Source of the DNA: Sulfurovum sp. TSL6 | Lineage (GTDB): Bacteria > Campylobacterota > Campylobacteria > Campylobacterales > Sulfurovaceae | Direction of reading: 5' to 3' | DNA length: 64,000 nt | NCBI RefSeq assembly: GCF_019972115.1 | Contig: NZ_BPFJ01000001.1 | Location: 868,001 to 932,000 of the forward strand | In this document: positions 5,752 through 51,493 of the stretch, piece after piece | Numbering within the stretch: the first letter of the stretch is position 1 | Layout of the letters: each line of letters opens with the position of its first letter | The notes under the pieces: generated by a model | The model's database searches: none | Told to the model about the DNA's origin: nothing | Seen by the model: only the letters and a program-made list of their open reading frames with translations | Position numbers and translations under genes: made by a program

Positions 5752-6218
5752 TCATTCTTTTGATTGTTTTTTCTTTAAGTGTTCAACATGAACTATTAGT
5801 CCATCAACTGTTTTCTTTAATAAATCGAGTTCGTCAATAGTCAGATCATCTAACTGTTCGAGGTTGTACTCTATTGTGTCAATTATCTTCTTATGAGGTC
5901 GTTGCATAGGTTTCATAAAATAGGATGTGACAGTTGCTACAATCGTTCCAAAAAAAATATTGAACCAATTACTATCCACAGACCACCAACAAACTGAGCG
6001 GTACTCGAGGTTGGTGTATCAGCGATGCCTGCGGTAGAAAATGCCTCTCCATATGAATCTATAGATGCACCCTCAACACCCTGCTCAGCTAAATATAGTC
6101 CAGCAGAAAATATTAACCATAATACAATTAATAAAAGTATCATTTTTATAAATAGAGTGTGAACAATAATATCATTAATAAATCTCTTAAATCGTGTATG
6201 TCGCCCTATTCTTCTCAT
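5752..6218 (-). pseudogene. Two-helix ion-channel-like protein, frameshifted at a T8 tract
   Basis: Two overlapping frames encode one protein. The upstream frame (from 6218) gives a basic N terminus, a membrane helix (MILLLIVLWLIFSAGLYLAE) and a loop with STAGIADTP, then runs out just after GSIFF. The downstream frame resumes with FFGTIVATVTSYFM, the usual second helix of Ion_trans_2 potassium channels, then a charged coiled-coil tail. The break falls in a run of eight T on the coding strand (5950-5957); nine would give one 155-residue protein. STAGIADTP sits where TVGYG(D) filters occur, but differs, and the pore helix before it looks several residues short. It may be a pseudogene, phase-variable or rescued by slippage. 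Confidence 0.6.
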
Positions 6219-6511: not shown

Positions 6512-6602
6512 TGGCGGACAGTGAGGGATTCGAACCCTCGGTACCCTTACGAGTACGCATCCTTAGCAGGGATGTGGTTTCAGCCAACTCACCCAACTGT
6601 CC
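6512..6602 (-). tRNA. tRNA-Ser (anticodon GCU)
   Basis: Read on the minus strand, the 7-bp acceptor stem GGACAGT / ACTGTCC closes the molecule, followed by G and an encoded CCA (6514-6512). The anticodon loop is CTGCTAA, giving GCU for serine AGC/AGU codons. The long variable arm (CGTACTCGTAAGGGTACC) and the T arm GAGGGTTCGAATCCCTC are typical of class II tRNA-Ser. Length 91 bases including CCA. Confidence 0.95.
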
Positions 6603-50526: not shown

Positions 50527-50723
50527 TGTCAGACCAAGTACTCGATGAGTGGCAAATTGCCCTAAAACAGAAAAAATCTGAACTAGAAGCCTGTCAAAAA
50601 GAGCATCAGCTAAAAAGCTGTATGCGTTGTGAAAAACTGCTTGATTGTGTCGTTCGTGATAGCTATATCCAAGCTGTCTATGACAGTATGAGTAAAGGTG
50701 CCGGTGGGGGATTTGAGTTCTAA
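50526..50723 (+). CDS. Small cysteine protein coupled to fbp
   Basis: A 65-residue product with Cys at about 23, 32, 35 and 41, spaced C-x8-C-x2-C-x5-C (ACQKEH, CMRCEKLLDC), suggesting a zinc site or a thiol-disulfide unit. The tail AVYDSMSKGAGGGFEF is one I associate with a Campylobacterota-restricted family. The ATG overlaps the fbp stop by one base. Function unknown; a link to fbp is only positional. Confidence 0.8.
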   Translation: MSDQVLDEWQIALKQKKSELEACQKEHQLKSCMRCEKLLDCVVRDSYIQAVYDSMSKGAGGGFEF

Positions 50724-50968
50724 TAAGACTTTATCAACTTCAACTTCTCTGCCCTGCTCATCTTTTTTTTGATCTCATACTCACGTTTAGAAGCTGAACT
50801 TCTATCTGCGTACTCTTCGCTATAAACTAAGCTTACAGGTCTTCTGACACGTGTATATTTTGCCCCTTTATCCGAGCCGTTATGCTCTTCTATACGACGT
50901 TCCAATTCTGTAGCGATACCCGTATAAAGTGTCTCATCTGCACACTTTACTATATACACATAATACAT
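50720..50968 (-). CDS. GIY-YIG nuclease family protein
   Basis: An 82-residue protein of the UPF0213 or YhbQ group. It shows the GIY-YIG fold marks YYVYIVKCADETLYTGIATELERRI (split: YYVYIVKCAD, LYTGIATELE) and the downstream arginine KYTRVRRPVSLVYSEEY. Members may cut or process DNA but many are uncharacterised. It is convergent with the small cysteine protein (four-base overlap) and follows a charged gene on the same strand. Confidence 0.85.
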   Translation of the reverse strand: MYYVYIVKCADETLYTGIATELERRIEEHNGSDKGAKYTRVRRPVSLVYSEEYADRSSASKREYEIKKKMSRAEKLKLIKSY

Positions 50969-50977
50969 CTCTTCTTT

Positions 50978-51493
50978 TTACTTCTCATCTTCAAGGGCAT
51001 ACGCTTTAAAATAGACACGTACCCAATCATACGAGACAAAAAATTTGTCTGAATATATTTCAGTTTTAATGAGTACATCTTTCTTTTTCACTTCATATTC
51101 ACTGATAGATTTATAATAAAGTGTAATAATACTTGCTCTAGTGTTGATTTTATCACAATCTGCGATCTCTATATAATACTCTCGTTCCATATTTGTAAAT
51201 TTATAGAACTCTTTATTTGCGATCTTATAACGCTTTTTATTATGAAGCCGTTTCTTTTTGATCTCTTCCCGTTTTTGAGTACTGAGTCTTTTTTCATTGA
51301 GTTTGTCTAAGATCTTCTTTTTTTCTTCTTCCGTAAATGATCTTTTTTTACCTTGGAGTTCCTCTTCTGCTCTTTGATGGATCAGTCTTTCTTCATTTAA
51401 CCTATCCATGATCATTTTTTTTTCTTCAGCCGTGTAGGTTTCTTTTTTAGAGAAACTCTTTATATCTGTTATTTCACGTGAATGGTCATCCAT
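50978..51493 (-). CDS. Highly charged protein with internal repeat
   Basis: A 171-residue product. Residues about 20-85 contain two related lysine/glutamate-rich helical units, EEKKMIMDRLNEERL and EEKKKILDKLNEKRL, each about 32 residues apart, then a basic stretch (REEIKKKRLHNKKRYK). The C-terminal half is a probable folded domain (EYYIEIADCDKINTRASIITLYYK as YYIEIADCDK, RASIITLYYK). No family recognised. It is nine bases upstream of the GIY-YIG gene, and its start lies near the metG leader. Confidence 0.65.
   Translation of the reverse strand: MDDHSREITDIKSFSKKETYTAEEKKMIMDRLNEERLIHQRAEEELQGKKRSFTEEEKKKILDKLNEKRLSTQKREEIKKKRLHNKKRYKIANKEFYKFTNMEREYYIEIADCDKINTRASIITLYYKSISEYEVKKKDVLIKTEIYSDKFFVSYDWVRVYFKAYALEDEK

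Follow-up and report, generated by a model that had tools for sequence, protein, structure and literature searches.

The minus-strand locus at positions 5752–6218 of the 64 kb stretch of DNA analyzed here (hereafter, the window) is, in our assessment, likely to be a pseudogene: a two-transmembrane, KcsA-like channel gene that was probably acquired horizontally and appears to have been inactivated fairly recently by two lesions. A channel gene of the kind found in Gammaproteobacteria and in one Gallionella MAG probably entered this genome and would have been disrupted by a 21-nt in-frame loss before the filter and by a frameshift at a run of eight T (T8) in the second helix. No working channel would then be made because even a frame-restored product would lack the helix that holds the filter. 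The original prediction, which had offered decay and phase variation as possible explanations of an ion channel gene broken at the T8 run, is supported on the side of decay by a comparison in which seven pore-helix residues are missing and the frame is broken in the window copy, whereas 13 of 13 relatives are intact.

The remnant consists of two overlapping frames on the minus strand, listed among the ORFs as a 93-codon frame (6218–5937) and a 75-codon frame (5979–5752), and the point at which the frame switches is the T8 run at 5950–5957 (A8 on the plus strand). The first frame (93 aa, 5937–6218) encodes the N-terminus, the first transmembrane helix, a truncated pore helix, the STAGIAD filter, and the start of the second helix, and falls out of frame after the T8 run, whereas the second (75 aa, 5752–5979), the homologous part of which starts at this run, encodes the remainder of the second helix together with the conserved C-terminal helices of the cytosolic part. 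Both pieces matched the same protein family, with E values of 7e-40 and 1e-39, respectively. This family is uninterrupted in 13 relatives and, on the evidence of sequence comparison, it is this match of both frames to the same family that is above chance, not the T8 run. The two frames join at the T8 run, as had been predicted, at the coordinates given above, with a run of eight bases and one continuous protein in the relatives. That this is a broken ion channel gene was likewise upheld, given that, in each open relative, the counterpart of the two pieces is a single continuous protein. Scanned against Pfam, neither the pieces nor their read-through matched a family above its cut-off, and the scan of the locus for regulatory signals detected no terminator-like site and five promoter-like sites compared with 6.0 expected. 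The remnant, located on the 3′ side of a minus-strand tRNA-Ser(GCT) gene (6512–6602), is present in a single copy in its own genome, where the only match of a 1001-base stretch other than to itself was to one further place, by way of the tRNA that it includes.

A search of 84,980 species genomes identified five relatives that are 68–80% identical in the best segment, from MAGs labelled Chromatiaceae, Colwellia, Sedimenticola, Gallionella, and Gammaproteobacteria. All five are open across the position of the break in the window copy; the Colwellia copy has a stop near the aligned start, and its own frame begins a few codons further on. With these five relatives as the profile, a second search covered 369 genomes from the class to which the Sedimenticola MAG belongs and produced matches at E <= 1e-20 in 11 of them, namely, two of the first five, eight new open copies (L056–L063), and a decayed one (L064). 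Matches were also obtained in 1 of 300 genomes of the order of the Gallionella MAG and 1 of 6 of the family of the Chromatiaceae MAG, in both cases the MAG itself. The resulting set of 13 different uninterrupted relatives (L005, L006, L007, L008, L009, and L056–L063), from Gammaproteobacteria and the one Gallionella MAG, encodes a protein of ~162 residues, to which the window copy is homologous over its full length, the identity reaching 84% across 154 columns. A C-terminal segment, I-I-D/E-T-I-E-x-N-L-E, is strongly conserved in 13/13 family members. The second decayed copy of the family, L064 (1486–1764), contains three in-frame stops and lies at the end of the examined stretch; because it belongs to another genome, loss of the channel-like gene is not unique to the window. 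When the ORFs of five of the relatives' loci were compared by eye, no common neighbor gene was seen, and the NCBIfam scan of four relatives gave weak matches only, all far below the cut-offs. Mobile carriage of the family was considered and rejected given that no relative was detected in IMG/VR contigs, plasmids, or phages at the sensitivities of those searches.

The strongest evidence of decay is the shortened pore helix, a feature that had been suspected from the window alone and that the alignment to intact homologues confirms: the filter is as in the relatives, and the pore helix is truly cut. Where the relatives share the invariant sequence A-L-Y-W-G-[VI]-A-A-F-S-T-A-G-I-A, the window copy does not carry it in full and reads A-F-S-T-A-G-I-A, that is, it is missing seven residues (21 nt; A-L-Y-W-G-V/I-A) that are present in 13/13 relatives. 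In sequence alignments of the relatives, the missing stretch aligns with the part of KcsA just before the filter, which we take to be the pore helix. At the site of the deletion, L005, the nearest relative, has a 5-bp direct repeat, GCATT, the two copies of which are exactly 21 nt apart, and the window keeps a single GCATT within the scar (6036–6047, minus strand); the repeats are weaker in the other four relatives that were read at the DNA level. Direct repeats are the usual substrate for slippage deletion and, given the spacing of the pair in L005 and the one copy retained in the window, slippage between the GCATT repeats is the likely route by which the 21 nt would have been lost.

The second lesion falls on a Leu codon that is invariant in 13/13 relatives, all of which have Leu at the start of the run followed by Phe-Phe-Gly, and the DNA alignment with five relatives places the gap inside this codon. 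In the same five relatives, the longest T run per gene is only 4–6 bases, which argues that the T8 tract is not ancestral, as far as these genes show. The base loss that broke the frame may itself have created the T8 run; the frameshift would have arisen either because the invariant Leu codon lost a base or through slippage in a run that had formed there by substitution. The length of the run is unremarkable. The 64 kb window contains 12 A/T runs of 8–9 bases, of which two lie outside the listed ORFs and nine, besides the T8 run itself, lie in eight ORFs that are open through the run, seven of these ORFs having a Pfam domain. Because these nine runs sit in ORFs that stay open, A/T runs of this length are ordinary sequence of this genome; the chance of such a run in random sequence with the length and dinucleotide make-up of the gene is ~0.07. 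Elsewhere in the window, at 50720–51493 on the minus strand, two neighboring ORFs encode a GIY-YIG domain protein (82 aa, with a T8 run inside) and a 171-aa product without a Pfam match (with a T9 run inside).

Among the alternatives to a pseudogene, the one that survives best, albeit as an improbable explanation, is that an error of sequencing or assembly at the homopolymer produced the frameshift, so that the real gene would be open and, with the 21-nt deletion, would encode a membrane protein of 155 residues in which the pore helix is cut. Some platforms are known to make single-base errors at runs of eight, and both the apparently constrained substitutions and the in-frame nature of the deletion would speak for an open gene. 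However, the nine other A/T runs of 8–9 bases in ORFs of the window leave their frames intact, so that runs of this length are not a general weakness of the assembly, and the 21-nt deletion, which cannot be a sequencing error of the homopolymer type, would be left unexplained.

Phase variation, in which replication slippage of the T run would toggle the channel on and off, was the other explanation offered at the outset and appears very unlikely. The frames do join at a homopolymer, which resembles homopolymer phase variation in Campylobacter, where A/T tracts are named in some putative phase-variable genes and called unexplored in a review (PMC8355987). The main and usual mechanism described in that review is, however, that of G/C tracts, mostly G9–G10 in C. 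jejuni (PMC8355987), whereas the run in the window is of the A/T type and shorter. Furthermore, no such tract is present in the five relatives read at the DNA level, and the second lesion could not be mended by switching: any ‘on’ form would still lack the seven pore-helix residues found in 13/13 relatives. With a part of the pore lost in addition to the reading frame, an on/off switch at the T run is unlikely, and a functional product of the open frame, such as a phase-variable gene has, would not be expected here. The gene is in no other of the 78 congeners, so that variation of the tract length could not show. The general caution is that, when a homopolymer interrupts a reading frame, a full-length comparison with intact relatives should precede any proposal of phase variation.

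No more credible is the possibility that some functional full-length product arises on the U-run by transcriptional slippage or by −1 ribosomal frameshifting. The run could plausibly act as a slippery stretch, and a change of −1 is what the frame requires, but the five relatives read at the DNA level have no such run, and the pore of the product would be damaged anyway. That the two ORFs, each with a start codon, encode a membrane fragment and a soluble, helical one as proteins in their own right can be dismissed almost entirely, because the relatives do not conserve the two frames as separate proteins but have one uninterrupted protein in 13 of 13 cases, and the split falls inside the part that aligns with the second transmembrane helix.

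Some observations run counter to decay of the gene and bear on the age of the putative inactivation. The pN/pS values between the window copy and the five relatives (0.17–0.21, 5 pairs) are close to those among the relatives (0.14–0.20, 10 pairs), with synonymous sites near saturation and, accordingly, low power. Of the 63 columns that show no variation among the 13 relatives, the window copy is missing six, owing to the deletion, and differs at two, one of which is the break, so that beyond the two lesions it departs at one more invariant column; in a leave-one-out comparison, the uninterrupted relatives themselves differ at 0–6 of 63–69 invariant columns. Neither pN/pS, given the near-saturated synonymous sites, nor the departures from invariant columns gave a clear sign of relaxed selection. 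The deletion, moreover, is in frame, as it would be under selection on the protein, although this is the case for one random deletion in three. Taken as they stand, the sequence data suggest that the inactivation is recent or that the shortened protein is still constrained; under the pseudogene explanation, the break would be recent because the substitutions still resemble those of a constrained gene.

Within the lineage of the window, the gene was found in a single genome per sample, the samples overlapping: 1 of 100 related genomes, 1 of 78 genomes of the genus, and 1 of 298 genomes of the phylum sample. Six weak matches apart from these, five in the genus and one from a family-mate in the phylum sample, were rejected as family members because they are parts of 359–532-residue channels with TVGYGD or TVGFGD. 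Given its presence in 1 of 78 congeners and the relatives in another phylum, the gene was probably acquired horizontally from other bacteria. In the phylogenetic tree, the window copy is placed beside L005 with support of 86/87, in a topology that is weakly resolved, with only one branch starred. The GC content of the gene is 34%, with a GC3 of 0.22–0.29 compared with 0.26–0.41 in eight genes of the window; the composition thus shows no sign of a GC-rich donor and is not foreign. Acquisition is deduced from the patchy distribution, with the weakly resolved tree and the non-foreign composition as counterpoints. At tRNA-Ser(GCT), the adjacent ORFs differ, by eye, among the 14 congener loci inspected, and tyrosine integrases (PF00589) are located beside this tRNA gene in three of the 14 (L011, L022, and L031). 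A search for a tRNA-end repeat as an attachment site showed that the first 14 bases of the tRNA 3′ end are not repeated anywhere else within the window.

As a pseudogene, the locus is an ordinary relic of little weight; the invariant, non-canonical filter of its 13 uninterrupted relatives would be of interest for channel biophysics, provided that ions pass through these proteins. The K+ channel filter signature is T-x-G-Y/F-G, which neither the relatives nor the window copy display, T-A-G-I-A being present in all of them. The filter text STAGIADTP, read in the original prediction as a sign of decay, is real, but this candidate sign was ruled out because STAGIA is invariant in 13/13 uninterrupted relatives and present in the window copy, which also means that the whole family departs from T-x-G-Y-G. 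Three Ion_trans_2 matches over the cut-off were found in the window's own genome, two of them with canonical filters (TVGYG and TVGFG) by pattern search, whereas the third showed none. No relevant mention of STAGIAD or TAGIAD as a selectivity filter was found in the titles and abstract openings of the literature.

As in KcsA and other two-helix K+ channels, the order in the family would be helix, pore helix, filter, helix, and cytosolic helix, and its profile aligns positions 28–128 to KcsA structures (best E 6e-8), which points, at the level of the sequence profile, to homology with KcsA-like pores. The alignment of the relatives to KcsA extends across the entire pore module, whereas the pore helix of the window copy is shorter by seven residues. 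Unlike these channels, the 13 uninterrupted relatives have the filter S-T-A-G-I-A-D/E/N/A instead of T-V-G-Y-G-D, and the family has its own conserved C-terminal segment. At E <= 0.01, 12 of 14 rows match Ion_trans (PF00520) and 11 of 14 match Ion_trans_2 (PF07885), but unlike the Pfam channels, only some family members exceed the curated cut-offs, with PF07885 (22.5) passed by one and PF00520 (25) by two of four relatives; the window pieces and their read-through gave no match to either domain at E <= 1. The AlphaFold prediction for five relatives was poor (mean pLDDT 54), the model of a relative placing helices at 22–47, 54–72, and 79–113. We tentatively propose, as a possibility that falls somewhat short of an even chance, a small and patchy family of KcsA-like pores with an invariant T-A-G-I-A filter, devoid of the second glycine and the aromatic residue of T-V-G-Y-G; if the relatives conduct, these would be natural two-helix channels with a selectivity of another kind, which selection would have maintained in several proteobacterial lineages and which would have been lost repeatedly. 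Among the loci of this family, that of the Colwellia copy (L006) includes, directly upstream of the gene, two ORFs (1979–2910) that, by eye, resemble the two parts of an IS3-type transposase.
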